From: an uncultured Hyphomicrobiales bacterium
GTDB lineage: Bacteria; Pseudomonadota; Alphaproteobacteria; Rhizobiales; Beijerinckiaceae
Direction: 5' to 3'
DNA length: 46,693 bases
Assembly: GCA_903884435.1 (NCBI GenBank)
Contig: CAISEY010000007.1
Coordinates: 1-46,693, forward strand
A program made the translations under genes and the position numbers. Below are positions 3,628 through 36,209 of the stretch, piece after piece; the first letter of the stretch is position 1, and each line of letters starts with the position of its first letter. The notes beneath the pieces are model-generated. The model did no database searches. It was not told the DNA's origin and was given only the letters and a program-made list of their open reading frames with translations.

Positions 3628-3783
3628 GGACGATCCTCCCGAATTCGCGACGCGCTTCGCGCGTTCGCCGTCACCATAACGAGCCGCGGCCGCGATGTCG
3701 CCCCTGTTTCTCTTGCGGCGGGCCGCGTCGCCGGTCTAGTTTACACCCGACGCGGGCCACGAGAATCCGCGGGGGGAGACGTC
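3628..3783. promoter_or_regulatory. Divergent intergenic region between two Bug genes
   Basis: These 156 bp separate the start codons of two divergently transcribed Bug/TctC genes and must hold both promoters. A GGGGGAG ribosome binding site lies just before the plus-strand ATG. No confident sigma-70 boxes or operator palindrome could be named by eye, and no regulator gene is adjacent. Confidence 0.4.
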
Positions 3784-19431: not shown

Positions 19432-20286
19432 TCACGCCGCGGCGGTTTCGAACGCCTCGGGACTGACGCCGCCGAGATGGCTTTGACTGCGGGTTCGGTT
19501 GTGGAAGACCTCAATGCAATCGAACGCATCGGCTCGGGCGAGGTCTCGGGTGTTGTAGATTCGTTTGCGGATGCGTTCCTTCTTCAGACTGCCGAAGAAT
19601 GATCCCGCAACGGCGTTGTCCCGGCAATTGCCGCGTCTGCTCATGCCCGGCTCGAGGTTTTGGGCCCGGCGGAAACGACGGAAGTCATCGCTGCCATATT
19701 GGCTGCCCTGATCCGAATGCACGATGACAGGCCGGTCGGGTTTCCAGCGCCACACGGCCATCGACAGCGCATCCAATACGAGCTCTCGGGAAAGGCTTGC
19801 CTTCATCGACCAACCGACGAGCTTCCGGGCATGGAGGTCGAGCGCCGCCGCCAGATACAGCCAGCCCTGCCCTGTGCGGGTACAGGTGATATCGGTCACC
19901 CGGACCTTGTTGGGCGTATCGACGGTGAACTCGCGCCGCGGATGGTTCGGCGCGATAATCGAAGGACGCCCCGCGATCGTGCGAGGCGACTTGTAGCCGC
20001 GCACAGCCTTGATCTTGTGTGCCCGCATGACGCGCTCGACACGATGCAGGCCGCGGCGCTCTCCGACTTCCCGCGGATCGCCGAACACGCGTCGGGCGCC
20101 ATGGACGCCATGACTGGCGGCATGGGAGTGACGGATCAGATCCAGCAAACGGGCGTCTTCCCCCGCGCGATTGGAAACGGACTCCCGAAGCCATTCATGG
20201 AAGCCGGCGCGGGCGACGCGCGGCGCGCGGCACATCAGCGTGACGGGATATTCCGCCCGATGTTCAATCATGAAGCGGTGCCTCAC
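19432..20286 (-). pseudogene. IS3-family transposase OrfB, DDE glutamate replaced by glycine
   Basis: An open frame of 284 residues with the rve integrase core: first Asp in VRVTDITCTRTG, second Asp in VIVHSDQGSQY. Counting 35 residues on from the second Asp reaches Gly in DNAVAGSFFGSLKKE, where IS3-family enzymes have the catalytic Glu (AVAESFF). The codon is GGA, one transition from GAA. The protein should therefore be catalytically inactive although the frame is intact. It starts at an ATG overlapping the orfA stop (ATGA); in this family a fusion OrfAB is normally made by frameshifting. Listed as a pseudogene because of the missing catalytic residue. Confidence 0.85.
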
Positions 20287-20567
20287 TCGGGCTCCCCGGC
20301 AAGGTTCCGCGCGGCCTTTTTCAGGAGATCGCGCTCCTCTTCCACCCGCCGCACCTGAGCCCGCAGGCGGAGGATCCCGCGCTTCGCTTCAAGCAGCTCT
20401 TTCGATTGCTGTCCGGATTTGTCCGGAGAAGCAGCCTTGACCCATTTGTACAAGCTGTGCGCAGAGACGCCCGGACGAGCGGCCACATCCGGCACGCCGT
20501 ATCCGCGATCTCTTGCCTGCTTGACGGCTTCTTCCTTAAATTCCGGGGTAAATCTCTGTGTACTCAC
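20283..20567 (-). CDS. IS3-family transposase OrfA
   Basis: A 94-residue protein from the GTG at 20567, which has a strong AGGAGG upstream. The N-terminus STQRFTPEFKEEAVKQARDRGYGVPDVAARPGVSAHSLYKWVK is the helix-turn-helix of IS3 OrfA. It is followed by a leucine-zipper-like helix (ELLEAKRGILRLRAQVRRVEEERDLLKKAA). It binds the element's ends and normally joins OrfB by frameshifting. Its frame extends upstream of the GTG only into the element's end and flank. With OrfB mutated, it could at most act as a repressor of related copies. Confidence 0.88.
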   Translation of the reverse strand: MSTQRFTPEFKEEAVKQARDRGYGVPDVAARPGVSAHSLYKWVKAASPDKSGQQSKELLEAKRGILRLRAQVRRVEEERDLLKKAARNLAGEPE

Positions 20568-20605
20568 AAGCTGCCTCCTATGCGCAAAGGACAGGCGAGG
20601 CTTGT

Positions 20606-20705
20606 CTACCGGACCGGGGCAGGCCAGCGCCAGCCAGCGGGGAGATCGACTATCCCGCCTTCGCTTCAGGCTATCCCCGCAGCAGCGCGAGGAATTCATG
20701 CGGGC
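20606..20705 (+). pseudogene. Integrase gene remnant after the IS
   Basis: Right of the IS the frame YRTGAGQRQPAGRSTI continues the integrase arm-binding domain. It then needs a one-base shift to read SRLRFRLSPQQREEF, similar to the LTP-x-x-AR segment of such proteins. Similarity ends about 10 bp before the pbpC stop codon at 20715, so the rest of the integrase has been deleted and the end of the envelope operon lies directly against it. Confidence 0.6.
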
Positions 20706-20714
20706 GCCATTGAA

Positions 20715-23018
20715 TCACTCGACCTCAATATGAATCGTCTGAGATACGCCAGGCTGCAAGGGAAGCCGCAACTGAAATTGATGCGCGCCCTTTGTGACGG
20801 GCCAATAGACTGGCTTGTCGGGGTCGGAAACCGCAAACGGCGCTCCATCGACATACCAGACGACTTGCGGCGGGCGGGGTTCCACGACGGCCTTCAGTGC
20901 GATGCGCGATGAACCGGGAGGCCGGTCGGGGCTGATCCAGACGCGGCTGTTGTTGTCGGGGGACGTGATCGTCAGGCGCGGCGCTGCGTTGATCTCCGGT
21001 TCTCCGGCAACCCGATAACCCGCCGCGGTCGCCCAGGCGCGGTGCGCGGCAGGCATTTTGATGGCATCGCGCTGATCGCTCGTTTTGTCGCCAGGTTGAA
21101 AGCGCTCCTGCGGCGGTGGAATTTCATTCGGCCGCAACCACTCCGTCAGTGTCTGTCCGCAGTCGCCGTTGCCGCGCTTGCCGCCGAAAACACAAAGTTC
21201 CACCGGCACGCGGCCTTCCGGGGGTGGAAAGCCGGAATCGTCGAGATCGCCGGCACGCGTCCCATGCAATTGCAACAGGATCGCATGGGTCAACCGCGCC
21301 ACCGAGCCGCCGCCGCTGAGCTGCGTCATCGTGCCGGCGTCGCCTCTTCCAAGCCAGACTCCGACGATGTATCTGCGCGACCACGCGATAGTCCAGGCGT
21401 CGCGATAACCTTGCGACGTGCCGGTTTTCAAGGCGACCGCGAACGGGAACTCACTTGGACCGTAGCGCGGGAAACTCGGCAGCCGCGCCATCGGGTCTGC
21501 GAGAAACGAGGTGATGAGCCGAGCGGTATCTACGGAAAGTACACGCACCGGCTCCCGCTGCGTCTGTCCCTGCGCCCAGACGAGGTCCATCATGCGGCCA
21601 TCTTCGGCCAACGCAGAGTACGCGCGGACAAGACGCTCCAGCGTCGTCGGCAGCGATCCGATTGCCATGGACAGGCCGAAACTGTCCGCCGGAACCGTCT
21701 GATCATGAAGCCCGAGCGTGTGCAGGAACCGAAATGCGTTGTCGAGTCCGGAGGCGCGCAAGAGATTTGTCGCGGGTACATTGCGGGAATTGGCCAGCGC
21801 CTGCCGGGGCAACATCGGACCAAGGAAATGGCCGTCTGCGTTATTGATGAGCGACGCGCCTTCGGGCAAGTCGGCCAGGATGTCTGCCGGCGTAATGACG
21901 CCGCGCTCGAGCGCCAGCGCGTAAATGAAAGGCTTGAGCGTGCTGCCGGGCGACCTCTGCGCGCGGCTGAAATCGAGAGCGCCTGCGTGACGATCGTCAT
22001 AAGAATTGGAACCGAGATCGGCGACGACAGCGCCCGAGCCACGATCCAGTACGATGGCGGCGACCTGTTCGGCGCCCGAATCGCGCCAGGCGTTCAGGTA
22101 ACGTTGCGCCAGCTTCGTGACGTTCGACTGCACGTCGAAGTCCAGCGTCGCGAAGATGCGCGGATTAAAAGGCGATGCGGGCCGCAGTTTTCCCTCACGC
22201 ACCAGCGCTTCGTATCGCAACACGATGTGCAGCGCATCCGGCCGGCGCGGAGTCTGCGGCGGCGGAAGAGCGCTCAACTGACGGTGCGCCAGCGCGAGTT
22301 CCGTTGTGTTGATGACTCGCTGGCGCGCCAGTTCTTCGAGCATGCGGTGACCGCGCTGTGTGGCGCGCGCGAGACCCTCCGGCTTCAGGGGATTCATGCG
22401 GGTCGGCGATTGCGGAATGGCTGAGAGGAGCGCGATTTCCGCCCAGCTCAGATCATCGACCGGCTTGTCGAAATAGAATCGCGCCGCATGCGCGATACCG
22501 TGGCTCCCATTGCCGTAAGGCGTGAGGCGTAAATAATGCGCGAGCAATTCCTGGCGACCGTATCGCAGCGTGAGGCCGACCGCGATGACCGCTTCGCGCG
22601 ATTTGGCCATCATGGTGCGATCTGTCGGATGCTGCATGCGAGCAACCTGCATGGCGATCGTGGAAGCGCCGGATCGCCGCCTGCCGCGCAGATTTCCGAA
22701 GGCGGCGCGCGTGATGGCGATTGGATCGACGCCCGCATGGATCCAGAACCGATGATCCTCGAGCGCGAGCGTTGCGCGCGCCACCCGGTCCGGCAATTCG
22801 CGTAGTGGCCAATAGCCATAATCGACGCGACGAACGCCATCAGCCTCCATCGGCGCCTCATCGCCGATTTGCGTCAGAAATACTCCATGCCGGTCATAGA
22901 CGATTGGCGAGGGCGCAGGCGATTTCAGAACGATGTCGTCACGCAGGGAAGCCGCGAAGGATGCGACGCCGACCAGCGTCGCAATGCCCACAAGGGTCGT
23001 GGCGATCCGCCGTTTCAC
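20715..23018 (-). CDS. pbpC: Penicillin-binding protein 1C
   Basis: A 767-residue bifunctional peptidoglycan synthase. The start is the GTG at 23018, 10 bp after the alpha-2-macroglobulin stop; it gives a short basic tail (KRR) and one membrane anchor (residues 8-24). The GT51 glycosyltransferase domain carries LEDHRFWIHAGVDP (Glu87) and RSGASTIAMQVARM. The transpeptidase domain has S359-T-L-K362 (SPGSTLKPFIYA), SRN (411-413) and K531-T-G. A C-terminal BiPBP_C immunoglobulin-like domain follows (about 680-767). PBP1C is typically encoded beside bacterial alpha-2-macroglobulin, as here, and the pair is thought to repair and guard the wall after attack (established association). It is last in a three-gene operon whose end abuts an integrase remnant. 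Confidence 0.95.
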   Translation of the reverse strand: MKRRIATTLVGIATLVGVASFAASLRDDIVLKSPAPSPIVYDRHGVFLTQIGDEAPMEADGVRRVDYGYWPLRELPDRVARATLALEDHRFWIHAGVDPIAITRAAFGNLRGRRRSGASTIAMQVARMQHPTDRTMMAKSREAVIAVGLTLRYGRQELLAHYLRLTPYGNGSHGIAHAARFYFDKPVDDLSWAEIALLSAIPQSPTRMNPLKPEGLARATQRGHRMLEELARQRVINTTELALAHRQLSALPPPQTPRRPDALHIVLRYEALVREGKLRPASPFNPRIFATLDFDVQSNVTKLAQRYLNAWRDSGAEQVAAIVLDRGSGAVVADLGSNSYDDRHAGALDFSRAQRSPGSTLKPFIYALALERGVITPADILADLPEGASLINNADGHFLGPMLPRQALANSRNVPATNLLRASGLDNAFRFLHTLGLHDQTVPADSFGLSMAIGSLPTTLERLVRAYSALAEDGRMMDLVWAQGQTQREPVRVLSVDTARLITSFLADPMARLPSFPRYGPSEFPFAVALKTGTSQGYRDAWTIAWSRRYIVGVWLGRGDAGTMTQLSGGGSVARLTHAILLQLHGTRAGDLDDSGFPPPEGRVPVELCVFGGKRGNGDCGQTLTEWLRPNEIPPPQERFQPGDKTSDQRDAIKMPAAHRAWATAAGYRVAGEPEINAAPRLTITSPDNNSRVWISPDRPPGSSRIALKAVVEPRPPQVVWYVDGAPFAVSDPDKPVYWPVTKGAHQFQLRLPLQPGVSQTIHIEVE

Positions 23019-23028
23019 GAACGCGCAC

Positions 23029-26000
23029 TCACCGTGTGACCACGATGCGCAGCCCGGCGCTCGCCCCGTAAAGACCGGCGCGGTACATGGTTTCGACTTC
23101 GCCTTGCGGCTGCGTGAAACTGCCGGCGACCTGACCGCGTGTCCGGAACGTGAAGCTGTAATTGCCTTTTGGCAACGAGTCATAGGCGTAGAATACGCGA
23201 TCGTCTCCGAAGCTCGTCCATGTCGGTGCGCGCGTGGGTCCGGCGGACGGCGTCGCCTCCGCGGGTGCGGTAGCCAGATTGGGATTGAGCGGCTCGAGTC
23301 CCGCCGCCAGCGGCAACGAAATCGCCACGTGGGTGCGGTCTTCCGGAACAGTGACCTCGGCCGTTTCTTCGATCACGTCGCCAACCGCAATGTGAATGGC
23401 GCCATCGGGGCCCGGCGCGAGCTGCTCCGGAGGCCCGTTGCCGATGCGTGACAGCCGTCGTGTGATCACGAATCCCAGTGCGATCGCGGGCGCGCGAGAA
23501 CCGGACTCCGTGGGCTGATACCGGGTTTCCACCAGCGCGATCACCGGCGCGGCGCCGCCATTGTCGATGCGCAATAGCGTCGGATCGCTTTCCCTGGTGC
23601 GCAGGATTGGAGCATCACCCGTCAAAGCCAATCGCAGTGAATTCGCACCATGCGAGAGAACCAGCGGCAGAGCGGCTGATGGCCGTTTCAGCACGTCCGC
23701 CAGCGCGCGGATCGCGGCGGCATTGGCGTTGGTCGAGCCCCATCCCGAGCCGTCCCCAAGACGCAGCAGGCCGTCGCGCAATACCGTCAGCCGATCATCG
23801 TCCGGCGTCGCTGTGGCAATCGCGCGGGTGATTTCCGCGAGGCTTCGGGTTTCGGACGGCAGGATCAAGTCGTTGCCCCCATCTGCGGCTAGGCCGGCGT
23901 AATAGGGCTTGCCGTCGCGCGCCAGAATTTTGACCCGGCTCCACAGCGTTTCCGTCAGTTCCTTCAGCAGGCGGTGATCCTCGCCCGGCAGATGCGCGAC
24001 AGCGGAGGTTACTTGCGCGACCGAAGCGTTCGGCATGGATTGCGCGCGGCGGCTCAGTTCGGCCAGATAGGCGGAGTCGAGCTTGTCGCCCTCGGCGAGT
24101 GCGGTCAGCGCTTCGACACGCTCGCGCAGCTCTTCGCCGGACAGCAATCGCGCATAGTCCGAACGTAGTGACAGCTTCAGCACGTTGGCGAGACGTTCGA
24201 GCAAGGTCTTGTCGACGGGTTCACCAGCTTTTTCGGCGGCGACGGCGAATCGATAGGCCCATGCGGTCAGCGAAACATTGCCTCGCGCCTTGGGCCAGTA
24301 GGCCACCAGCCCGTCCCCGTCGATGCTTTGCGAGATCGCCCGCAGCGTGTTGCGCACGTCTCCCGCGAGCCGCTGATCCAGACCAGAGGCTGCAAGGATG
24401 GGCAGAAACGGCTTCAGCGCCAGAGTCGCTGACGCGAGCGAGATGCGCTGCTCGGTGCAGGCGTAAGGATAGCGCGCCAGATAGTCGAGGCCCGCGACGA
24501 TTTTCACGATCGCCGGATCTGCCGCCAGCGTCACATTGCGCTGGAACGAACCGGGCCGGAAGCTTTCGGTCACAGCCGCGACGCTCGCATTGCCGCGCTC
24601 CGGAACATCGACAAGTTCATTGTAGCGCACCACCGGGCGGTCGGGACGAACCGGCAGATCAATCTGCACGTTGTCGCTGGCGCGATCGGCGTCGCGTTGC
24701 AACGAGAAGCGCAAACGCACTTGTTCGAGGCCCGGCGCCGGTTCGCGCACCGTGACGGGAAACTCAATGCGGGCCGGACGGTTCTGCTGCCACGCGAGTC
24801 TTTGTTCGCCAGCGCCGCCGAGCGTCAAACCGTCCGCCGCAAGCGTCGCGCGTCCGGCGCCGCCAGCGCCTTCGACCACCCGGCCTATGAGGCTGGCGTC
24901 GAATGTGTCGCCGGGACGAACGAAACGCGGCAAGGCGGGCTGAGCGACAAGTTCCTGGCGCACCAGTAATTCTCCGGTCGCGAATCCGAAACGGTCCGGA
25001 CCGCTGATCGCTTTGGCGCGCAGTTTGAAGACAGTCAATGAATCCGGCAGTTTCACCTTGATCTTCGCGATGCCGTTAGCGCCGACAATCACCTTTGGAA
25101 GATAGATCGGGATCGGGGTGAAATTCTTGCGCACGGAGACGTTGTTGTCGGTGCCCCATTCATCGAGACCCGCGTCGCCGCCGGAATCTTCATTGAGCGG
25201 AATGACGCCGAACGCCATGTTGCGCGTATCGCGCGCCGCCATTTTCGTCGGCCGTTCGACGATGAAAGTCTTGAGCGGATCGAGCGGCCGCTCCTTGGCC
25301 AGGGAAAGAACGGCCTGATCGACCATCCAGAAGGTTGCTTCGCCCGCGGTGGGCTTGCCGAGGTCGTCCGCCAGCCGCAAGGTGACTTCAATTTCCTCGC
25401 CGGGCCGCGCCTTTTGCGGCGATTCAAGCGAGGCGGCGACGATGTTTTTCACCGGCGTCACGCTGACCCATTTGGTCGCCGCGATCGTCACCGGCTTGCC
25501 CTGATCGAACGGAGCACTCGGGTCGGTCGCGGTATTCGGCAGGCGTCCGCGCATGATGAGAAAATGCACCGCGACGCGCGGCATCTCTTCCTTGCGCAAT
25601 GTCACCGCGTAGCGCCCGAAACCATTGGCGATATCGACCCAGTCGTAGCGGAAACGGCCTTCCGGTTCTTCGACGATTGCGAGGGCGCGCGCGTTTTGGA
25701 ATGGACTCTGGATGACCAGAGTCGCGGTTTCTCCGGGCGCATAGGCGTCCTTTTCCGTTGTCACTTCGGCGGTTTGCGCGGGCGCGCGCGCCCAGGTCAC
25801 GGGCGTGTCGCCGGCGACGAACATGTCGAGGCTCACCTGCTGGCGACGACCGATGCGATCCGCCGCCTCGACTTGCACGAGGTAGACGCCGGCCTCGCGC
25901 GTTTCGAAAGACAGATGTTGCGAATCCATCGTGCTGGTCAGCTTGCGTTCGACCAGCGTGTCGTCGATGACCTCCGTCACGTACCTGGCGGCGCCCTGGC

Positions 26001-28833
26001 TAAAATCGCTCGCCTGCAGCACGGAACTCCAGTTGCGCTTGATGAGGCGAACGGTCATCTCGACGCCCGCGAGCGGAGCGCCATTGGCGTCGATCGCCAT
26101 GATCTCCGGTTCGATCGTCCCGGCTTTTGGCAAATAGCGCGGCGCCTTCACGCCAAGCACGAATGCTGGCAATGCGATGACGGACGTTACGTTGCGAACC
26201 TGAATGTCATCATCGCCCGTGACAGTCGCTTCGATCTGATAGCGGCGCGGCTGCCCGGTGGGCTCGATCGTGGTGTCGAAAGTGATGCGCGCCGCGCCCG
26301 CGGCATCCGTCGCGGCGTCGCGTTCCAGCACGGGCGTCGCCTTGAAGGTTCCATCTCCCGAGAAGCGAGCGTCGGTCGAGAAGTACCAGCTTTCCCGGCC
26401 CGGCGGCGTCCACGCGTAAGGAAACTGGCTGGCGCGCCATTTGATAGGCCGGTCGGCTACGAGCCCGCCGGCGAAATAACGCGCCAGCAGATCGACGGAA
26501 AACTCGCCGTCCAGGGCGGCCTGTTGTGGAGCGTTGAGGATCGCTTCGAAAGTGGGGAGACGATAATCTTCCTTCTTGAATTGAGATTCGCCGCAACTGG
26601 CCGTCTGCGTCGCTGACTCGTCGGTTGTATCGGCGTCTTCCGTGTTATCAGCCGAATCGTCGCTCGAGGCAGCCGTTTTCCTGGAGCCGTCGGGTTCATA
26701 GCGAACGGCGTAGTCGCCCGTTGCGGGCGTTTCGGCGTCGAACTTGTGATAGAAATTGCCGGTCGCGTCGATCTTTACCGGAATACGCCATTCCTGCTTG
26801 GCCGGCCCGATGACCACAATCGTCCCGCCCCCCCTCGCGTAGGATAGCGCGCCGCCCAGGTAATTGCGCACATAACCCTTGATATGCACCGGCTCCTCGC
26901 GCCGGTAGATCGGCCGCTCGGTGAATACATGGCAGATTGCGCGCGACGGCTCTGCCCGATCGACGGCTGGATCGGTGGTCCAGGCAAGCCACGGTTCTTC
27001 CGGCTTCGTCCAATTGTCCTTGGCGTATTGCCGTGGCCCATCGCCGGGCTCCAGGATCAAGGCGTCCAGGCCTTTGGTCACGACGATGCGTTTGATTTCG
27101 GCCTCGGCGCGGTCATTCAGCGTCCACGTGAAAGCGCCTTCGCTGTCTGTTGTGCCTGAAACCAGCGTCACGAATTTGTCGTCGCGCAATCCATCGAGAC
27201 GGATTTGCGCCTGCGCCACGGGCTGGGCGCTCGCCAACGACGTGACAGCGAACCGCACGCGTGAGGTTTCCTCGACGGCGCTTAGCGTCAGGTCGGTCAC
27301 CTGGATGCGCATCCATTCGCGCGTGCCGCCATTCAGCGCGCGCATGCCGACGAGATAAGTTCCGGGCTGGTCCGCGCCGGCGATTTTGGCGAGCAGGGGC
27401 TTCAGGTCGAGACCAAACTTGGCGCCTGCCCCGCCGCGTCTGATGGGAAGCCGCGCGAGTTCGGAAATGGCGGGCGAGCCAAGCGCCTTGATGCGTGCCC
27501 GGATGGCGTCGGCGTTCGCGTCACCATCATCGCTCCACGCGGCTGGCTCTTTGCCGGGCAGCGGCGGCGGCGCGGCGTCGTCGGTCTCGACGCCGTCGCC
27601 CGGAAAAGGCCAGAAATCGCGCGACAGCGGATCAACAGCATGGATGCGCAAATCGACCTTGTCATATCCGGCCCCGACCATCGGAACGAGTTGAGGACCA
27701 AACCGTTCGACGACCCCTTCGCGCGCGTCCCAGGTGAGACCTGGCGCTTGCGCCGCGAAGGCGAAGCGCTGCGCGAATGTCGCGCCTTCCATTGGGCGGT
27801 TGCGTTCATCCCGCAGCGCCCCGGGGGAGATGCGCAGTTCGTAGACCGTGTCAGACAGGAATTTGGCCGTCAGCCGCAGACGAGATCCGTCGTTTTCCAC
27901 GACGAGATCGTCGATCGGCGGCGAAATACGCAGTGCGTCTCGAGCGCCAGGCGCGTCGAGCGCCCGAGGCCTCGAGGAGAAGCTGACCAGGATACTGCGC
28001 TTCACGGCGCGTTGCGCCGCATTGTCGTCGCCCGATGATCGATAGGGCGAGCAGCGCATCACATCGCCGGCTGTGTCGCGATCGAGGCCACGTCCGCAGC
28101 TGGCCTCCGTCGCCGTGAAGGGCGCGGCGCTGCTCAGGCGGAGTTCGTAAAGGAGATCATCGAGCCCGGCCTCATCCGAGAGGCGAAGTCGCAGGATTGC
28201 GACGCGACCGTCCGGCAGGGCGTTCTTCAGTTGCACGACATAAGATTGTTTTTCGTCGCGCTTGCCGCGTTCGAGTGCGTGGATTGAAAAATCCTGAGGT
28301 GCGAGAAATTGTCCGCCTGCCCCCGAGACGCCGGGCGACGGCCGCACTTCGATGGTCGTGAGTCGTGACAGCGCGGCCAGGTCGACTGGCCTGTTGAATG
28401 TGAGAACGATGCGATCAAGATCGGTTACCGGACCTGATTGGGCCGACGGACTGGTAGAGTCAGGCGTGGGCAGGAGCGGGATCAGCCGTGTCCTTGCATC
28501 GCCGAACTCGAATTCGACGGCGTTCAGCGGCTTCCACGGATCAGCGGGGCGAAATTGCAGGGCGCGCCCGCCCAGCCATTGCCATGCGCCAGCGGTCGGC
28601 GGAGACATCGTCACAAGTCGTTCGGGATGATCTTCCGGCCCCCCCAGCGCCGGTCCGACGTCATGATCGAAGAATAGCGTCACCGGATCCCATGAACGCA
28701 AAAAGCGGTCGGGTACGATCGTTGCGTCGTCGGCGCGCCGCAACTGGTCGAGCGAGGGAGCCTGCGCCTGCGCGTTCGCCATTCCGGCGAGCGGAAACAA
28801 CGCGAGGGCGGAAAGAAGAGCCAGGCGCTTCAT
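23029..28833 (-). CDS. Bacterial alpha-2-macroglobulin with thioester motif
   Basis: A 1934-residue exported protease trap. The ATG at 28833 is chosen because GAGGAA lies six bases upstream; an ATG two codons earlier touches that site. The signal peptide (MKRLALLSALALFPLAGMANAQA) has no lipobox Cys, so unlike the E. coli protein it should be a soluble periplasmic protein. MG-type beta-sandwich domains fill most of the chain. Visible landmarks are an insert rich in Asp/Thr/Ser (SSDDSADNTEDADTT, about residues 725-740), a bait-region stretch (EDSGGDAGLDEWG, about 1213-1225), and the thioester Cys1459-T-E-Q1462 in the alpha-helical TED domain. Such proteins trap attacking proteases covalently. 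It lies between the LprI-domain giant (10 bp) and pbpC (10 bp). Confidence 0.95.
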   Translation of the reverse strand: MKRLALLSALALFPLAGMANAQAQAPSLDQLRRADDATIVPDRFLRSWDPVTLFFDHDVGPALGGPEDHPERLVTMSPPTAGAWQWLGGRALQFRPADPWKPLNAVEFEFGDARTRLIPLLPTPDSTSPSAQSGPVTDLDRIVLTFNRPVDLAALSRLTTIEVRPSPGVSGAGGQFLAPQDFSIHALERGKRDEKQSYVVQLKNALPDGRVAILRLRLSDEAGLDDLLYELRLSSAAPFTATEASCGRGLDRDTAGDVMRCSPYRSSGDDNAAQRAVKRSILVSFSSRPRALDAPGARDALRISPPIDDLVVENDGSRLRLTAKFLSDTVYELRISPGALRDERNRPMEGATFAQRFAFAAQAPGLTWDAREGVVERFGPQLVPMVGAGYDKVDLRIHAVDPLSRDFWPFPGDGVETDDAAPPPLPGKEPAAWSDDGDANADAIRARIKALGSPAISELARLPIRRGGAGAKFGLDLKPLLAKIAGADQPGTYLVGMRALNGGTREWMRIQVTDLTLSAVEETSRVRFAVTSLASAQPVAQAQIRLDGLRDDKFVTLVSGTTDSEGAFTWTLNDRAEAEIKRIVVTKGLDALILEPGDGPRQYAKDNWTKPEEPWLAWTTDPAVDRAEPSRAICHVFTERPIYRREEPVHIKGYVRNYLGGALSYARGGGTIVVIGPAKQEWRIPVKIDATGNFYHKFDAETPATGDYAVRYEPDGSRKTAASSDDSADNTEDADTTDESATQTASCGESQFKKEDYRLPTFEAILNAPQQAALDGEFSVDLLARYFAGGLVADRPIKWRASQFPYAWTPPGRESWYFSTDARFSGDGTFKATPVLERDAATDAAGAARITFDTTIEPTGQPRRYQIEATVTGDDDIQVRNVTSVIALPAFVLGVKAPRYLPKAGTIEPEIMAIDANGAPLAGVEMTVRLIKRNWSSVLQASDFSQGAARYVTEVIDDTLVERKLTSTMDSQHLSFETREAGVYLVQVEAADRIGRRQQVSLDMFVAGDTPVTWARAPAQTAEVTTEKDAYAPGETATLVIQSPFQNARALAIVEEPEGRFRYDWVDIANGFGRYAVTLRKEEMPRVAVHFLIMRGRLPNTATDPSAPFDQGKPVTIAATKWVSVTPVKNIVAASLESPQKARPGEEIEVTLRLADDLGKPTAGEATFWMVDQAVLSLAKERPLDPLKTFIVERPTKMAARDTRNMAFGVIPLNEDSGGDAGLDEWGTDNNVSVRKNFTPIPIYLPKVIVGANGIAKIKVKLPDSLTVFKLRAKAISGPDRFGFATGELLVRQELVAQPALPRFVRPGDTFDASLIGRVVEGAGGAGRATLAADGLTLGGAGEQRLAWQQNRPARIEFPVTVREPAPGLEQVRLRFSLQRDADRASDNVQIDLPVRPDRPVVRYNELVDVPERGNASVAAVTESFRPGSFQRNVTLAADPAIVKIVAGLDYLARYPYACTEQRISLASATLALKPFLPILAASGLDQRLAGDVRNTLRAISQSIDGDGLVAYWPKARGNVSLTAWAYRFAVAAEKAGEPVDKTLLERLANVLKLSLRSDYARLLSGEELRERVEALTALAEGDKLDSAYLAELSRRAQSMPNASVAQVTSAVAHLPGEDHRLLKELTETLWSRVKILARDGKPYYAGLAADGGNDLILPSETRSLAEITRAIATATPDDDRLTVLRDGLLRLGDGSGWGSTNANAAAIRALADVLKRPSAALPLVLSHGANSLRLALTGDAPILRTRESDPTLLRIDNGGAAPVIALVETRYQPTESGSRAPAIALGFVITRRLSRIGNGPPEQLAPGPDGAIHIAVGDVIEETAEVTVPEDRTHVAISLPLAAGLEPLNPNLATAPAEATPSAGPTRAPTWTSFGDDRVFYAYDSLPKGNYSFTFRTRGQVAGSFTQPQGEVETMYRAGLYGASAGLRIVVTR

Positions 28834-28843
28834 CGTCATTTCC

Positions 28844-31800
28844 TCAGCGGACGCGGGTCGGCGACAGGCCGACGAGTTCGAGATAGCGGCTGGTGACATC
28901 TGGCGGCGGCCCGTTGTCGGGGGGTGTCAGGCCGACGACGGCCGGGCGAACGGTGAGTGTTTCGCCGTCCGCTGGCGCGCGGGCTTCCAGCAAGTAGTGG
29001 CCGGGTTGCAGTGTCTGCAGTTGCGCTACGCCCTCGCCAATCCGCCGCCCACTGGAGTCGAGGAGGCGCGCGCTGGCGCGGTCGGGATCAGAACGAACGC
29101 CAACGCCGATGTTGGCGGCGCGTTTTACCTCGAAGCCGAAAAGCGCCATCGACCCGGGCGCAAGCGCCTGCGGTTCGCCGATGCCTTCGGCGATTTCGGT
29201 GACCGGCGTTGCGGTCAGTTCGAGTTCCCCGGACAATGGCCCGTCCTGCGGTGAATAGAGTCGCAATTCGGCGGCGCCAGCCGCGAGATAGCGATGGAAT
29301 TCTGCCCCAAGCGGGAAGAGTTCCGGCGCGCCCCGCGCCACGCCTTGTTGCAGCGACAGGATCGCTGGCGCATTCGTGCGCGCATGCAGGAGGACAGCCG
29401 TTTTCGCCGCCAGTGCGAAAGCCTGCGCGGCGCCTGAAAGGCTGGCGACTTGCGGTAACGCGATCGGTGTGGCGGAAGCAAGCGCCCACGGCGTCGCGGT
29501 TGCGTTCTCGATCCAGGCCGCCACGAGGCCCGGCGCATGAGCAATGACGAGTTCGCCCGGACCGTTGAGGGCCATTCGCGGGCCGCTCGAGACCCTTCCG
29601 TCATTGCCGATGAACGTCGGCGCGCCGCCCGCCGTGACCAGAGTGTCGCCCGCCTCCGCCCGTGTCGGAAGCGACAGTGAGCCAGCCGCGCCGAAGAAGC
29701 GCTTGACGGCAAGCCCGGCTGCCAGCCGCGGCTGCTCATTCGTGTCGATGACGTCGATCGAAGCCGGGGCCGGCTGCTCGCCTGCATTGATCAGCAGAGC
29801 CTGAGTCCAGTCATCCGCAAGCTGCCGCGTCATGGCTGAGCCGCCGGCCCAAACGGTCACATCGCGATTGCCGCCGGAAAGATGCGCGGCGGTATTGGCG
29901 GCGAGATCGACGCGAACCTGCTTTCCTCCGGGCGGCAATTGCACGGGCTGCGCGGAGTGCGGAGCCAGAACCGACGAATAGTGGCCGGTTGTGCTTGCCG
30001 GCTTGCGCATGGCTACATCGAGGCTGTCGACGCGCAGACGCAGCGCGTCATTCGATCCGGCGTTCCACACCCGCAACGGCGCCTCTCCGGCGACTGCGAA
30101 TGCTCCGCCTTGCGCGACGCCGAAGCCGCGGCCTGCATCGATTCCCGGTTGTCCGAAAGTCGAGAAAGCGCGCCACACGCGCTGCGTTTCATCGGCGACG
30201 GGCGATGCTCGCAACGTCGCGACGTCGCCGGCGGCAAGTTCGAGCGCGATGTCCTTCGCGTCGCCCGCTACAGCATCAAGGTGGACGGATTTCAGCGCGT
30301 CGTTCCGAGCCAGAAGCCACAGGCCTTCGGATTGCGGCGCCAGCGTTCCGCTTTCAGCGGCCACGAGCGGGCGACCCGGACGCGAACCTTGAAAAAGTCC
30401 CGAATAGCGCTCTTTCAGAATCACAATCGATTTCCGCGGCGCTGCCACGAGGGCGGCGCGCAACGGAAGGTCGAGCCCGTCGATCGCAACTGGCTTGAGG
30501 TTGATATCGCCCAGTGCCTGCGCGGCGTCGGCGACAGAGCGCGCTCCGATCGTAATGTCGGCCGCCCCCCCATCGATTGCCCAGACCGAGACCCGCCATG
30601 GGTTCGTGTCGGCATCTGCCGGCGCCGCCACTATGGGGGTACGGCCGCGATCGAAGGCTTCGGCGCGCCACGCGCCGCTTGCGTCGCGTCGTTCGAGCGA
30701 CAACACGAGTTCGTTGAGCGAACGAGCCCCCACGGTCAGCAATGTTGCCGCCGGAATGGCTGGAAGATCGAAGCGATGGACCCGCGGCCCGGTGACCGAC
30801 TTGAACGCGGTTAGATCGAGGGTTTGCGCTGGAGCGGGCCGGGGGAGATCAAGGTGGAGCTCGATGGCTCCCTCGGTTTCGTCGTCGCGGCTGGAGGCTG
30901 TCGCAGGCCGCTTGTCCTCTCCATCGCTGGACGATTGATCGTCGTCATCTGACGAAGCATCAGAATCGCTTTTTTGCGCGGATTTCGATTCTGACAGATC
31001 GATACGGTACGTCCCCGCTGACAGCAGGCGCGAGAGCGCGATGTTCCAGTCATCGGCGCGACCCGTGAGGCGCTCGATAACGCCGCCGTCAGAATCGCGC
31101 AGGATGGCGCTGAGTTCTCTTCTGCCAAAGGTTGTGACGCTCACAACGCGATCCTGAGCGATCGAAATCGGAATCGATGCCGGCAATGCAACAGAGCGCT
31201 TCTGCCCGGGTTGCAATTCAGCGGCGCCAAGACTGATGGTGTAGTCGAGGCGGTCGTTGCGGCCGAGCGCCCGCGCCTCCACCGCGTAATGGCCAGCGGG
31301 CAGCATGTTCGCGAAGCCTCGCTTGTAAACGATCTTGCCGATGGGTTTCGGTTCGCCAGTTACCTCGACAAGGTCGCCGATCACGCCGTCGCTGACGTCG
31401 AGCGTCACATGGGAAGGTCCCTGCAGGTCAAAGGTCCAGCGATCAGGCGTGCGTGGTGCATCCCTGGCGGAGGGCTCGCGCCATTGAAACGCCTGTTCAA
31501 TGCCGAAAGGCAGCTGGTGCGGACCGTGGCCTTCGGGCGATGGCTCCGGATTGGCGCTCCGCAGGCGCGCGACAAGTCGCGCGTCGACGTCCTGCGGCAA
31601 AACGACGAGCCGATATCGGCCTGCCTCGAAACGTCGCTGCAATGTGTCAAGTGGCCCCGGCCGCATGAGCGGCCAGCCTTCGGCATCTTCGAGCCGCGCC
31701 GAAAATGTTCGGTCGAGGCCATGAAGATCAATCCGGTATTCGCCCGGTTTGACGATATCGATCGCAATGGTCGCCCCCGCGCCGCTTGCGAGAGTCGCGC

Positions 31801-34552
31801 GCACTCTGCCATCAGGGACGAGCGCGCCGGCATTGATCAGCGCGGCCGGTTTCGCGACGAGTCCAAGACGACCGGAGGAATCGTAAGCCGCGACGCCGAC
31901 CCGATACGCACCCGCCCGGAGGTATGTCTGCAGCAGTGCATTGTGGCCCGCGCCGTTATCTCCGGCTGTGGCCAGGCGTGGCGAGAAGGAGGTCGAGACG
32001 CTGACGTTCGTTTTGAGACGCCCGAGGGTTTCGAGCCGATAAAGCCCGCCTTCCGGAGCATTCAACAGGAAGCGTCTGCTCTCTGTCTCCTTCAGGTCGA
32101 AGAAGGCCGCGACGCCGGCGGCCAGTGGATCGCCGAAATCTTCTGTCACGACTTTTGGCATCGCGACTGGAGGCTCGTTCTTGACGAACGCGAGGACAAT
32201 TGTCCGCTCACTCTCCGATGGCGGAATGGTCACGGTGGCGCTGATGATATCCTTGTCGACACCTTGCGTCGCGACCGCGACATCCATGGGGTTGCTGGTC
32301 TGGTCGGTCGCCACCAGACGCCCCCCGGTGGGAATGCGGATCGGAATGACGAGACTTCCGTCCAGGGCAGCTGTCCTCGGTGGCAAGACGGCTGGCGAGG
32401 GGCGGGGCGGCAGAGGTTTCGGGGCGACAACTCGCTGGGTCGACGGTGCGGCCTTGGGTGTTTGAGGCCGCGCGGTAGCGCCCTTGGGCTTGGGCGCAGG
32501 TGTGGGCTGGACTGGCGCCGGGGCCACCCGCGGCGGGACGCGCGCTGGCGCTGGAGCGTTGGGGGCGGTGGGCTGGACTATCGCCGCCGCACGCGCGGGC
32601 TGCTGCACCGACAACGGCGTCGATGATAAATCGGCTGGCAGTGCGCGCGCTCTTGGTCCGGTGACGAGGCCTGGCGCGCTGTTCACGTAGGCCTGGTAAT
32701 ATGTGCTCCGATCGATCGTCTGCCGACCAAGGTCTATCACAGTGCGCGCGGGTGGTGCAGGCGAGGGATCGACCGCGAGCCCCGGTTGTCCGAACGTCAG
32801 ATCAATGACTCCTGCCGCGCCTGCTACGGGGTCCAGTCTCAGCACATACCAGCCAGAGTCGACCTCCCAGCGTTGCGGAGACTCGCCGTCGACGCGCGGC
32901 GCGTTGCCACCTGCAAGAGTATCGAGCGTCATCCGAACGCCGGGGCCCCGAGCAACCGCCGCAACAGGACCTGACCCGGTCACTTCGAAGATGAGTGTCG
33001 TTGGTCCACGCAGATTGAATTTGCGCCGCCACGCAGTGCCGGGTCCGACTCGCGGCGCATCGGAAACCATGACCTGTCCGGCGCCATTCTCATACCGCGC
33101 CAGAACGGCGGTCGCCGGAACCTCGTCCGCGCCTTCGCCCGCGACGTCGACGGCGAGCAGATAGGACCCTGCTGCGCCGAGCCGCAGCGAGGATGCGGGG
33201 TTGAGCGCTCGGAGCCGGAATTTCTGGCCTTCGAGTCCGCTCACTTCAACGAAGGCTGGATTCTGGCCATTTGTCGAAAGACTCGCGGAGGCGGTTGGCT
33301 CGCGACTGTTTTTGGTGATCGTCGCGACCGTTGAGCCGCCGCCGGCGCGCCGCGCTGAAAGGCGGGCCGTCGCCTGTTCGGGCAAATCGAGGCGGAGATA
33401 GGACGCCGGCGCGGGGACCTCGAACCGTTGCGATCCCAACGGCCCCAGCACGCCCTCGAACCAGTCTGCCGCCATCAACGTCGGCGGACCGATGCGCACG
33501 TGCAGCGGTTGCGCCGTATCGCCGTCGGCCCACGATTGTGGCGCGCCACCATAGGTCGTGACCAGATAAAGTCCCGGCTCGAGTGCGCCTTCGAGTCGCA
33601 GGCGCGTCAGCGGATGTCCGGCCTTCGGCTCTATCGTGGCGACCGGGGGCGCGAGTTCCGCAAGCTCTACACCATTGCGCCATGCGCGCATGTCCTGAAG
33701 AGAGCGGCCCGCCGCCTCAACGGCGATGGGATGCGAGGCGTCGACAATGACCCAGAAAGAGCGCTGCTGCAGATCGGCAAGTTCGCCGCTCGTCTGGCCG
33801 CCGCGCAAGAGGCTCCCATCGGCGGGCGCTATATCGCGAAAAGGTTCGATGGTCAGTGTCGCTTCGCCTGCCGCATCTTTCGCCCCGAATGTGCGGAGCT
33901 TGTAAACGCCCTTGTCGAGCAGAACATCAAGCCGCCCGTCGCGCGTTCCTGCATCGCCGGCTATGTCGCCCGGCCCTGTGATCATGTCGACGAGTTGAAC
34001 CGCAACGCCGGTCTTGCTCGCGGCGCGGATCGAAAAGCGCCCCGCCGATGTCACCGTGGCGAGCGCTTCGCCATCCGTTGATGCCGGAACCGAGGAAATC
34101 GAGAGACGCGCGGCGGGTGCTGGCGGCGCGGCGGGAAGCTGTTCGGCGTCGGACGGGGAAGACGACAGACTCGCCATGCGCAGCCGATAGACATCGGCGA
34201 GGCAGGCGCCGAACCGAGCCGCATTCGTCTCGGTGGCGGCGCAGGACCGGTCGCGGACGCCGATCCAGGTGCGTTGCGACTCGTGAAGTTGTTGCGTGCG
34301 GGCTGGCCCGGCTCGGGCTGCATCGAGGGATTGGCTGTAGGCATGCGCCAAAGTCAAATCAAGATTGATAAGCTCGGGAGAGGCGCAGATGGCTCTTTCG
34401 GTTGGTGTCTGCGCTTTGGAACAATCGAACGATTGCGCGAGGGCGGCGGACGATACTAAGCTCATGACTCCGGTTAAAAACAGAAGCTGAATGCCTTGGA
34501 TTCGTCGGCAAGAATTCCGGGAACCAGCACGCACAAGTTTCAATCTAGGCAC
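28844..34552 (-). CDS. Giant exported protein with N-terminal LprI/DUF1311 domain
   Basis: A 1902-residue protein, first gene of the alpha-2-macroglobulin/pbpC operon. The GTG at 34552 has AGGAG six bases upstream and leads into a signal peptide (LLFLTGVMSLVSSAALAQS, residues 23-41). Residues 42-130 are an LprI/DUF1311 domain with four Cys (44, 56, 104, 117) and the W-x-G-V-R-D-x-x-C pattern; LprI-type domains are known as lysozyme inhibitors. The rest is not recognised. It looks like repeated beta-sandwich modules (phrases such as FNLRGPTTLIFEVTG and FDLQGPSHVTLDVS recur). A Pro/Ala linker (about 635-735) and an acidic Ser/Asp linker (about 1190-1220) split it into three blocks. A periplasmic shield or scaffold role with its operon partners is inferred; no enzyme motif is visible. 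Confidence 0.88.
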   Translation of the reverse strand: MPRLKLVRAGSRNSCRRIQGIQLLFLTGVMSLVSSAALAQSFDCSKAQTPTERAICASPELINLDLTLAHAYSQSLDAARAGPARTQQLHESQRTWIGVRDRSCAATETNAARFGACLADVYRLRMASLSSSPSDAEQLPAAPPAPAARLSISSVPASTDGEALATVTSAGRFSIRAASKTGVAVQLVDMITGPGDIAGDAGTRDGRLDVLLDKGVYKLRTFGAKDAAGEATLTIEPFRDIAPADGSLLRGGQTSGELADLQQRSFWVIVDASHPIAVEAAGRSLQDMRAWRNGVELAELAPPVATIEPKAGHPLTRLRLEGALEPGLYLVTTYGGAPQSWADGDTAQPLHVRIGPPTLMAADWFEGVLGPLGSQRFEVPAPASYLRLDLPEQATARLSARRAGGGSTVATITKNSREPTASASLSTNGQNPAFVEVSGLEGQKFRLRALNPASSLRLGAAGSYLLAVDVAGEGADEVPATAVLARYENGAGQVMVSDAPRVGPGTAWRRKFNLRGPTTLIFEVTGSGPVAAVARGPGVRMTLDTLAGGNAPRVDGESPQRWEVDSGWYVLRLDPVAGAAGVIDLTFGQPGLAVDPSPAPPARTVIDLGRQTIDRSTYYQAYVNSAPGLVTGPRARALPADLSSTPLSVQQPARAAAIVQPTAPNAPAPARVPPRVAPAPVQPTPAPKPKGATARPQTPKAAPSTQRVVAPKPLPPRPSPAVLPPRTAALDGSLVIPIRIPTGGRLVATDQTSNPMDVAVATQGVDKDIISATVTIPPSESERTIVLAFVKNEPPVAMPKVVTEDFGDPLAAGVAAFFDLKETESRRFLLNAPEGGLYRLETLGRLKTNVSVSTSFSPRLATAGDNGAGHNALLQTYLRAGAYRVGVAAYDSSGRLGLVAKPAALINAGALVPDGRVRATLASGAGATIAIDIVKPGEYRIDLHGLDRTFSARLEDAEGWPLMRPGPLDTLQRRFEAGRYRLVVLPQDVDARLVARLRSANPEPSPEGHGPHQLPFGIEQAFQWREPSARDAPRTPDRWTFDLQGPSHVTLDVSDGVIGDLVEVTGEPKPIGKIVYKRGFANMLPAGHYAVEARALGRNDRLDYTISLGAAELQPGQKRSVALPASIPISIAQDRVVSVTTFGRRELSAILRDSDGGVIERLTGRADDWNIALSRLLSAGTYRIDLSESKSAQKSDSDASSDDDDQSSSDGEDKRPATASSRDDETEGAIELHLDLPRPAPAQTLDLTAFKSVTGPRVHRFDLPAIPAATLLTVGARSLNELVLSLERRDASGAWRAEAFDRGRTPIVAAPADADTNPWRVSVWAIDGGAADITIGARSVADAAQALGDINLKPVAIDGLDLPLRAALVAAPRKSIVILKERYSGLFQGSRPGRPLVAAESGTLAPQSEGLWLLARNDALKSVHLDAVAGDAKDIALELAAGDVATLRASPVADETQRVWRAFSTFGQPGIDAGRGFGVAQGGAFAVAGEAPLRVWNAGSNDALRLRVDSLDVAMRKPASTTGHYSSVLAPHSAQPVQLPPGGKQVRVDLAANTAAHLSGGNRDVTVWAGGSAMTRQLADDWTQALLINAGEQPAPASIDVIDTNEQPRLAAGLAVKRFFGAAGSLSLPTRAEAGDTLVTAGGAPTFIGNDGRVSSGPRMALNGPGELVIAHAPGLVAAWIENATATPWALASATPIALPQVASLSGAAQAFALAAKTAVLLHARTNAPAILSLQQGVARGAPELFPLGAEFHRYLAAGAAELRLYSPQDGPLSGELELTATPVTEIAEGIGEPQALAPGSMALFGFEVKRAANIGVGVRSDPDRASARLLDSSGRRIGEGVAQLQTLQPGHYLLEARAPADGETLTVRPAVVGLTPPDNGPPPDVTSRYLELVGLSPTRVR

Positions 34553-35240
34553 AGCCGACTCCTGAGGAAACGTTCGCCTGAAAGCCCCTTTGGCAACAAC
34601 TGCATAATTGCACGCTCTGCCTTATTATTGAAGTAGCAAACGATCACATGGCTCGACGTGTATGACACGATTATAATGGCGCAGCGCGCGGCAACGTACA
34701 TCTGGCCCAAACGCGCGTGAATCGGCTCCGGAGCAGGACCCCTCTCGATTCAATGAAGTCGAGGAGTTGTGACGCTGATCGGCGTCGGAACCCTACGCCG
34801 ATTTACAGCCCGCGTCATCCGGGCGCTGCTGGCCAAGGGCGCCTCCTGCCGGAAGCCGGAAGCGGCTCCTGCGGCGGAGCGACCGACCACGAGTTCTCGG
34901 AGCGAACAACCGAGAAAGGAGCACGGGTGCGACTGGAGAGATGAACCACGACGGGCGCGAACCCGATATCGGACACGCCGACTGACGCAATGGGTGCTTG
35001 AATCCGCAAGACTGACAAGGCGACCGCATATCGCGGAACTCATCATGGCCAGCGGTCACGTGTCCACATGAACAGGCCGGACATATGACGGCGCCGCCTC
35101 GAATGGATCAGACCTCCAAAAGCACCTTGCCTGTCGGGCCGTTCCACATATGCGTCAGTGCCAAAGTTCAACGCCGCTTCGCACACCGTGTCTTGATGCT
35201 CATCAGTTGCACTTTGAAGCCGTTTCTCTAAATTCGATTT
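34553..35240. other. Intergenic region upstream of the envelope operon
   Basis: This 688-bp gap must carry the promoter of the minus-strand operon. The first 120 bp next to the GTG are AT-richer (for example GCCTTATTATTGAAGTAGC near 34620), a reasonable promoter zone, though no boxes can be assigned. The middle holds an 83-bp repeat (34726-34808) that recurs inverted at 36531-36613. No convincing gene was found in 34810-35240. Confidence 0.5.
34726..34808 (+). repeat. 83-bp repeat, copy A (inverted relative to copy B)
   Basis: Aligns without gaps to the minus strand of 36613-36531 with 65 of 83 positions identical by hand count. Both copies begin CTCCGGAG and end TTTACAG. The best conserved part is GAGTTGTGACG, which looks like a ribosome binding site and GTG start; the following codons read MTLIGVGTLRRFT here and MTPIGFGTPRRFT in copy B. 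It is probably the start of a decayed gene of a mobile family I do not recognise. The two copies bracket the EEP-family gene. Confidence 0.7.
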
Positions 35241-36209
35241 ATGATCAGGAACTGGCGGCTCGCGACGTTCAATCTTGAATCCCTCGACGAACGCGCGCGT
35301 GCGCCGGAAGAGTTCGCCGCGCGCTGCGCGTCCCTTCGTCCACTTCTCCTTGAACTCGATGCGGACATTCTCTGCCTGCAGGAAGTGAATGCGCAAGGAA
35401 AGAAGCATTACGGCCCGCGCAAATTCGCGGCGCTCACCCACCTCATGGCGGGCACGCCCTATTCAGATTTTCACATCGCCTACAGCGTCAATCCGAAAAC
35501 AGGCAGTCCGGCCGACGTACATAATCTCGTGACGCTCTCGCGCTGGCCGCTGCGCCAGCGGCAGGTGTTTCACGACTTTCTGCCGCCCTGGATGATGCCG
35601 GCTATCGCTGTCGGCGCGAGCGCGCGCGGAAACGAAGTCCGCTTCGACAGACCGGTTCTGATCGCCGAGATCGATACGCCACACGGACGGCTCGTGTCGC
35701 TAAACCTGCATCTGCGCGCGCCGCGCGCCGTTCCGTTTCAGACTATCGGCCGCGGCGGACGCTGGAGCAGCAATGCTGAATGGGCCGAGGGCTTTCATCT
35801 TGCGGCGCTGAAACGGCAGGGCCAGGCGCTCGAGGCGCGGCTGGTGGTCGAGCGCGTGTTCGACGGGGAGTCTCGGGCGCGCATCGCCGTCTGCGGCGAT
35901 CTCAACGCCGACAGTTTCGAAACTCCGTCGCGGATCCTGCGTGGCGTTCCGGACGAAGGCGCGGATGGAAGCCTCCGCGAGCGCGAACTAACCCTGCTCG
36001 ACCAGCGCCTCCCGGCGGAGCAGCGCTACAGCGTCATCCACGATAGGCGGCGCGTGATGCTCGATCACCTCATGGTTTCGCGGGCGCTGGCGGAGCGATG
36101 CACCGGCGTCAAGAGCTTCAACGCTGGGCTCGCCGACGAAGCGCACGTCGAGGGACAGGTCGCGGGTTCTCTGCATGCGCCTCTCGTGGCCGAATTCGCG
36201 GAGGAGTAG
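35241..36209 (+). CDS. Endonuclease/exonuclease/phosphatase (EEP) family protein
   Basis: A 322-residue protein without a signal peptide. The metal and catalytic motifs of the DNase I/EEP fold occur in order: NLE (residue 11), ADILCLQEVNAQ with the metal-binding Glu (about 48), SLNLHLRAPR with the catalytic His (about 156), CGDLNADSFE (about 218), LDHLMVSR and the final LHAPLVAEF with the catalytic His-like position. It could be an exonuclease-III-like nuclease, an inositol-phosphatase or a sphingomyelinase-like phosphodiesterase; the sequence does not decide. No obvious ribosome binding site precedes the ATG. It is the only gene between the two inverted 83-bp repeats, so it may have come in as passenger DNA. 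Confidence 0.85.
   Translation: MIRNWRLATFNLESLDERARAPEEFAARCASLRPLLLELDADILCLQEVNAQGKKHYGPRKFAALTHLMAGTPYSDFHIAYSVNPKTGSPADVHNLVTLSRWPLRQRQVFHDFLPPWMMPAIAVGASARGNEVRFDRPVLIAEIDTPHGRLVSLNLHLRAPRAVPFQTIGRGGRWSSNAEWAEGFHLAALKRQGQALEARLVVERVFDGESRARIAVCGDLNADSFETPSRILRGVPDEGADGSLRERELTLLDQRLPAEQRYSVIHDRRRVMLDHLMVSRALAERCTGVKSFNAGLADEAHVEGQVAGSLHAPLVAEFAEE

Follow-up and report, generated by a model that had tools for sequence, protein, structure and literature searches.

Within the contig of an uncultured Hyphomicrobiales bacterium analyzed here (CAISEY010000007.1 of assembly GCA_903884435.1; 46,693 nucleotides in all, referred to as the window), three genes lie head to tail on the minus strand between positions 20715 and 34552, spaced at most 10 bp apart. 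In order, they encode a very large exported protein, hereafter the giant, an alpha-2-macroglobulin (A2M), and the penicillin-binding protein PBP1C (Table 1). The original prediction of this arrangement, including a giant of 1902 residues with an LprI domain at its N-terminus, was confirmed. The gap between the giant and A2M genes amounts to 10 bp if the A2M starts at the ATG at 28833 and to 4 bp if it starts at the ATG at 28839; that between the A2M and PBP1C genes is 10 bp, with PBP1C starting at the GTG at 23018. The 490 bases upstream of the operon hold no same-strand frame of 100 amino acids, and the next such frame (35043-35441) overlaps an Exo_endo_phos-domain gene of the plus strand. 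At 0.646, the G+C content of the operon hardly differs from the 0.643 of the window.

Table 1. Features of the three-gene operon and its 3' boundary (positions in the window)
Feature	Position	Strand	Basis and remarks
Giant exported protein, operon gene 1	28844..34552	-	1902 amino acids, GTG start; open frame and translation, full-length relatives, low dN/dS among Rhizobium copies
Probable signal peptide of the giant, residues 1-40 (...ALAQ/SFDC)	34433..34552	-	hydrophobic stretch 21-39; cleavage site inferred by eye
LprI (PF07007) domain	34172..34423	-	four cysteines C44, C56, C104, C117; optional in the family
Core, N-terminal half, about residues 150-655 (limits by eye), cysteine-free	32588..34105	-	alignments A2 and A5, hhalign self-comparison, cysteine positions
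Proline-rich, poorly conserved linker, about residues 656-727	32372..32587	-	lowest conservation along the giant
Core, C-terminal half, residues 728-1902	28847..32371	-	some stretches mutually related, weakly PPC/PKD-like, acidic insert
A2M, giant-linked clade	23029..28839	-	start ATG 28839 or 28833; Pfam, tree, spacing
CTEQ thioester motif of the A2M	24448..24459	-	motif comparison across A2Ms
PBP1C, dedicated subtype	20715..23018	-	begins at GTG; intact catalytic motifs; C-terminal BiPBP_C domain
Transposase pair immediately following PBP1C	19432..20699	-	HTH_Tnp_1 and rve (integrase) domains; operon boundary, outside the operon

A tblastn search of plasmids for the giant returned nine records, seven of them from Rhizobium, each with a match over 80% or more of the protein at 43.7-45.0% identity, and the remaining two with a match at the LprI end only. 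A single-sequence scan of genome contigs revealed no relative of the giant; a scan with alignment A1 yielded 23 loci, of which 20 are giants or parts of giants and three (L037-L039) match the LprI region only. By title, the relatives belong to Rhizobium, Methylocystaceae, Methylobacteriaceae (Enterovirga), Rhodoblastus, Hyphomicrobiales, and a Beijerinckiaceae metagenome-assembled genome (MAG). The MAG holds the nearest relative, 67% identical and cut by a contig end, and full-length relatives are 42-47% identical. In the class outside the order, we found two full-length giants (L156 and L157, whose best pieces are 33-36% identical) and a fragmented one (L158). The operon genes are under purifying selection in the nine Rhizobium-clade copies that we selected, with a median dN/dS of 0.15 for the giant, 0.10 for the A2M, and 0.12 for PBP1C (36 pairs each; median dS of 0.85-1.0, nearing saturation). 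Relatives at 42-67% identity and the low dN/dS argue that the giant's frame is real and not a chance open frame.

How constant is the arrangement? An A2M of the giant-linked type comes next in all 26 giants whose contig continues (the window, seven Rhizobium plasmids, 16 genome-contig loci, L156, and L157), and PBP1C follows in 24 of the 25 testable loci, L028 ending before PBP1C and being absent from the PBP1C motif count as well. Excluded from these counts were loci whose contig ends in or near the giant, or whose giant and A2M sit on different contigs (L024, L032, L033, L036, and L158); the broken L013 and L016, which is near-identical to L015, were included here and left out of the alignments, the tree, and the motif counts. 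The sole PBP1C exception is Methylosinus sp. Sm6 (L029). The proposed coupling of the three genes is thus strongly supported, and the check on whether the giant's homologues are linked to A2M and pbpC gave a consistent answer, the Methylosinus exception keeping a PBP1C of the same type elsewhere. In that genome (G174), a PBP1C of the dedicated type, 57% identical to that of the window, lies on another contig (C66, 20569-22839; L179, L184), a natural split of the operon.

The giant and its A2M also coincide between genomes. In a survey of 385 genomes of the class (Alphaproteobacteria), the giant core was found in four and the A2M type of the window in the same four, the type being called at E 1e-60 or better, a threshold of our choosing at which weaker relatives go unlisted. 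Without the window's genome, the two coincide in the same 3 of 384, and the chance that two sets of this size would do so is about 1e-7 if kinship between genomes is ignored. In genome G226, the giant core and the A2M lie on separate short contigs. Across 11 Rhizobium-clade genomes, distances between giants correlate with those between the linked A2Ms at r = 0.96, with those between the PBP1Cs at 0.95, and with those between the chromosomal A2Ms, computed from the C-terminal part only, at 0.56; with the chromosomal A2M controlled for, the giant and the linked A2M have a partial correlation of 0.95.

The A2M of the window contains bMG10, BRD, A2M, and MG2 domains above the Pfam cut-off, with bMG3 just below it. 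An A2M with bMG10 occurs in 118 of 150 genomes of the order, and in 20 of these, PBP1C adjoins the A2M with no giant seen in the stretch examined; the 20 genomes were chosen by us and include the second A2M of the window's genome, and two of the stretches (L101 and L103) cover only 1 to 3 kb upstream. A2Ms without a giant are the rule in the order. The window A2M is 22-25% identical to 20 sampled standard A2Ms of the order, and in a tree of 56 C-terminal parts of at least 495 residues, a branch with support 100/100 parts all 24 giant-linked A2Ms from the 32 others. This branch measures 4.8 changes per column (the drawn root divides it into 2.61 and 2.17); L156 and L157 form long branches whose join may be false. 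Judged from the tree, the giant-linked A2Ms are a clade separate from the order's usual A2M. All 11 Rhizobium-clade carrier genomes encode two bMG10 proteins, one of which groups with the standard A2Ms; in G171, G174, G175, and G179, only one bMG10 protein was seen, on the contig of the giant.

The thioester cysteine is kept in 8 of the 24 giant-linked A2Ms (window, L026, L028, L029, L030, L034, L156, and L157) and replaced in the other 16 (15 by serine, one by proline), all of which belong to one Rhizobium clade, Rhizobium sp. CIAT894 being one carrier that has lost it; CxEQ is kept in all 32 standard A2Ms. The earlier description of the second gene as a thioester A2M therefore holds for the window, with its CTEQ motif, and fails for the Rhizobium branch. 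Loss of the cysteine from Rhizobium A2Ms under purifying selection suggests that covalent trapping is dispensable in this branch. The window A2M shows neither a transmembrane-like stretch nor a lipobox pattern. Simple lipobox patterns, with positions unmatched to start codons, occur in 4 of 24 giant-linked and 4 of 20 standard A2Ms and separate the groups poorly. We also observed that the segment equivalent to the bait (approximately residues 1150-1260 of the window A2M, counted from the MKRL start and placed by PF07703 and the alignment) is no more variable than its surroundings across eight giant-linked lineages. The share of the commonest residue per 30-residue block is 0.77-0.86 in eight giant-linked A2Ms versus 0.47-0.73 in eight standard ones. 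Such low variability is odd if the bait must attract many proteases.

A comparable division appears in the third gene. The window PBP1C has Transgly, Transpeptidase, and BiPBP_C domains above the Pfam cut-off, and its best NCBIfam model is PBP_1c at 440 bits, below the cut-off of 494. The glycosyltransferase and transpeptidase motifs are intact in all 23 copies. PBP1C has one transmembrane-like stretch, and none was found that would serve as an anchor in the giant or the window A2M. Among eight carrier genomes of our choosing, a PBP1C of this type was present in every one, unlinked in Methylosinus; in the seven genomes other than the window's own, it is 48-63% identical to the window's, the next best protein reaching at most 38%. 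The linked PBP1C is, by these identities, a dedicated type that is split off as the A2M is.

What could a protein as large as the giant contribute? Residues 21-39, within the probable signal peptide, are its sole transmembrane-like stretch. The window giant has one cysteine near its start and four in LprI, the core being free of them, and its approximately 1750 residues outside LprI gave no Pfam match above the cut-off. Comparison of overlapping segments with the whole giant by hhalign paired residues 159-234 with 516-586, 807-895 with 1110-1194, and 874-980 with 208-329, among others (one template, no reversed control; E 8e-6 to 3e-5), and many segments, such as those of 1171-1820 except the last and of 531-780, found no related stretch in the same comparison. 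By these matches, parts of the giant are related modules. Individual relatives show weak matches to PKD (11 of 18), Y_Y_Y (5 of 18), and PPC (PF04151; 3 of 18, with no match in the window's own giant), the best at E 2e-4. In addition, a profile of ten PPC domains aligns by hhalign at four places in the giant with E 0.007-0.022, versus 0.22 for the reversed giant. Based on these weak matches and the profile alignment, it is likely that the core contains sandwich-like modules. A search for a solved structure resembling the core gave one match, a T-cell receptor chain at E 0.1, which we judged to be chance. That the giant is a diverged paralogue of A2M is not supported either, since in hhalign the giant-linked A2M reached the core with a best E of 0.048 (reversed core, 0.26) and the standard A2M with 0.06, whereas the two A2M groups align to each other at 1e-61.

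With confidence balanced about evenly for and against, we propose that the three proteins of the operon, each of a dedicated type, make up a single accessory periplasmic machine, inherited as a whole, in which the giant acts as a non-covalent partner of the A2M and the machine has a PBP1C of its own. The membrane-anchored PBP1C would supply peptidoglycan synthesis, the A2M would be a soluble protease trap of its own clade, and the giant, a soluble multi-module protein, would serve as scaffold or co-trap by binding the A2M and possibly also PBP1C. Captured proteases would be held without a covalent thioester bond, much as the thioester-less MagD of Pseudomonas has MagA, MagB, and MagF at its side. 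The LprI tip would be an ancillary module that might target one of the cell's own lytic enzymes. Physical binding among the operon products, co-trapping, and cell-wall repair are steps that we infer. Because the thioester was lost while everything else was kept, we speculate that the giant replaces covalent capture; holding of the A2M-protease complex by the giant, which would make covalent capture unnecessary, is the simplest account of the loss.

The original prediction had assigned the giant a different role, resistance to muramidases, with LprI acting as a lysozyme inhibitor and the operon warding off muramidases and proteases together while repairing the wall. Residues 44-127 match PF07007 at 31 bits (cut-off 22), Pfam places LprI in 19 of the 21 rows of alignment A5, and its four cysteines are invariant in all 14 aligned rows; by sequence profile and cysteines, the segment appears LprI-like. 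No solved relative of the window's LprI domain was found, and the best structure matches of the LprI alignment, the designed helical protein 4D2 (E 0.0005) and a zinc-finger design (E 0.004), were judged to reflect chance or composition. The giant shares the LprI profile and the four conserved cysteines with LprI/DUF1311 proteins such as M. tuberculosis LprI and Salmonella ScwA, but in the giant this module spans only 84 of 1902 residues, is joined to the cysteine-free core, and is dispensable. It is absent from three giants with a readable N-terminus, L156 and the two remaining rows of A5, L029 and L036 (judged from their N-termini), although L029 and L156 are still followed by an A2M; the contig of L036 ends inside the giant, and no other open frame of the three loci matched LprI. 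The giants of L157 and L158 carry it. A Pfam scan with E up to 1 listed no MliC domain in the giant. In PMC7933661, it is the MliC domain that suffices for lysozyme resistance in M. tuberculosis LprI, ScwA has no role in lysozyme resistance, and LprI without MliC finds no support as an inhibitor. Lysozyme inhibition would also leave approximately 1750 conserved residues unexplained. Muramidase resistance through the giant is thus unsupported, and we set lysozyme inhibition by LprI aside as very unlikely; because the LprI tip is optional, a partner of the A2M is the more likely role. Database records label the protein as lysozyme inhibitor LprI family or as hypothetical, and the former label is probably misleading. 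A second LprI-domain gene exists in the window's genome (G000, contig C272, 26951-27211; L001), with a match of 51 bits in an open frame of 166 amino acids.

LprI could instead serve the cell's own wall metabolism. ScwA controls the levels of the lytic enzyme MltD, according to PMC7933661, and the giant may similarly regulate a lytic transglycosylase alongside PBP1C, with the A2M now a structural or regulatory protein and not a trap. Such a role would fit PBP1C motifs that stay intact in every copy while two thirds of the giant-linked A2Ms have lost the thioester, and a bait-equivalent segment no more variable than the rest. It sits poorly with the three giants that lack LprI, and the patchy distribution (the giant core is found in 1 of 150 genomes of the order, the window's own) fits an accessory function better; we regard it as unlikely. 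One may also consider the giant as an independent secreted or surface protein, an adhesin or a defence against predators or plant proteases, that is merely co-transcribed with A2M and PBP1C. PKD, Y_Y_Y, and PPC, weakly matched in the relatives, are kinds of domain common in surface proteins, and the operon is plasmid-borne in Rhizobium, with six of the seven records naming a plant or nodule source. Archaeal A2M homologues adjoin large surface proteins, some with Ig domains, according to PMC8416519. Against this stand the specific co-occurrence of the giant with one A2M clade and one PBP1C type in several families and the lack of any detected membrane anchor in the giant, and we consider an independent protein quite unlikely.

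Several points also weigh against the giant as a non-covalent partner of the A2M. The case for partnership is genetic, and genes linked in one operon show correlated distances whether or not their products touch. The copies that keep the thioester, the window's among them, may trap proteases covalently, and the giant may act otherwise. It has no significant similarity to A2M and, by Pfam, belongs to no curated family except LprI. One genus supplies most of the intact loci, several carriers are MAGs, and the genome surveys scored only a handful of first-look candidates in each genome (2 to 4 at most), which makes their absences uncertain.

The idea that bacterial A2Ms work with PBP1C reportedly goes back to Budd et al. 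2004, and ECAM, the A2M of E. coli, is a lipoprotein. According to PMC4498604, the genes of type I A2Ms, which have the thioester, accompany that of PBP1C; the proposed division of labour is protease trapping by the A2M and wall repair by PBP1C, and ECAM is anchored to the inner membrane. The window shares with such a pair (yfhM-pbpC in E. coli) a thioester A2M in an operon with PBP1C. Unlike that pair, it has the giant gene added in first position, and an A2M and a PBP1C of a separate subtype. The window's A2M lies outside the standard group and yielded no lipobox pattern in the simple search, and among the giant-linked A2Ms the Rhizobium branch has lost the thioester. Type II MagD, as described in PMC5764988, lacks the thioester, traps a protease, and binds MagA, MagB, and MagF, its stability depending on MagB. 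The mag operon of Pseudomonas aeruginosa (MagA-F) resembles ours in its thioester-less A2M, as found in the Rhizobium branch, and in an exported partner candidate, but here one giant stands in place of several small proteins, PBP1C is part of the operon, the window copy keeps CTEQ, and three genes followed by a transposase replace the six of magABCDEF. The archaeal neighbourhoods in PMC8416519 likewise bring A2M near other large putative surface proteins, a likeness by description; in contrast to our loci, they are variable and are described there without PBP1C. Our literature search, which covered open-licence PMC papers, found no description of the giant or of the three-gene operon, in keeping with the original statement that the giant was undescribed, and the available part of a 2026 A2M review (PMC12939704) contains nothing on either.

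Bacterial A2Ms have been sorted into type I, with thioester and PBP1C, and type II, without thioester and with Mag partners. The giant-linked clade crosses this line: it comes with PBP1C and with a giant companion, and one of its branches has shed the thioester without decaying. We tentatively suggest, at somewhat less than even confidence, that it represents a third kind of macroglobulin machine in bacteria, with the giant giving the grip, an A2M free to drop its thioester, and a coupled PBP1C completing one cassette that moves between Alphaproteobacteria. The clade offers a natural experiment on the roles of the thioester and of PBP1C in tractable plant-associated bacteria, and the operon supplies a genetic context for a protein otherwise annotated by its LprI domain or as hypothetical.

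Twenty relatives of the window's genome, 12 of them of the same genus, gave no match to the giant core, and four of them matched at the LprI end only. An order search with an LprI-containing alignment hit 75 of 150 genomes; apart from the window's own genome, the matches listed fall at the LprI end of the query, and the search was not used for the giant's distribution. No near-identical DNA was found on plasmids. The transposase pair begins 15 bp beyond the PBP1C stop codon, and no inverted repeats of at least 14 bp were found around it. In the plasmid of Rhizobium sp. C104 (L013, 14974-28922), the operon genes are open only in pieces (by tblastn, two for the giant, three for the A2M, and two for PBP1C), through decay or sequencing error. 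Two membrane proteins lie directly upstream of the giant in L158 (5563-7699, minus strand) and resemble, by eye, a proton-channel or motor pair. Elsewhere in the window, catabolic and transport genes (2662-4794, 40658-44025, and 45175-46692) encode TctC receptors, molybdopterin dehydrogenase subunits, and TctA, with no visible tie to the envelope operon.

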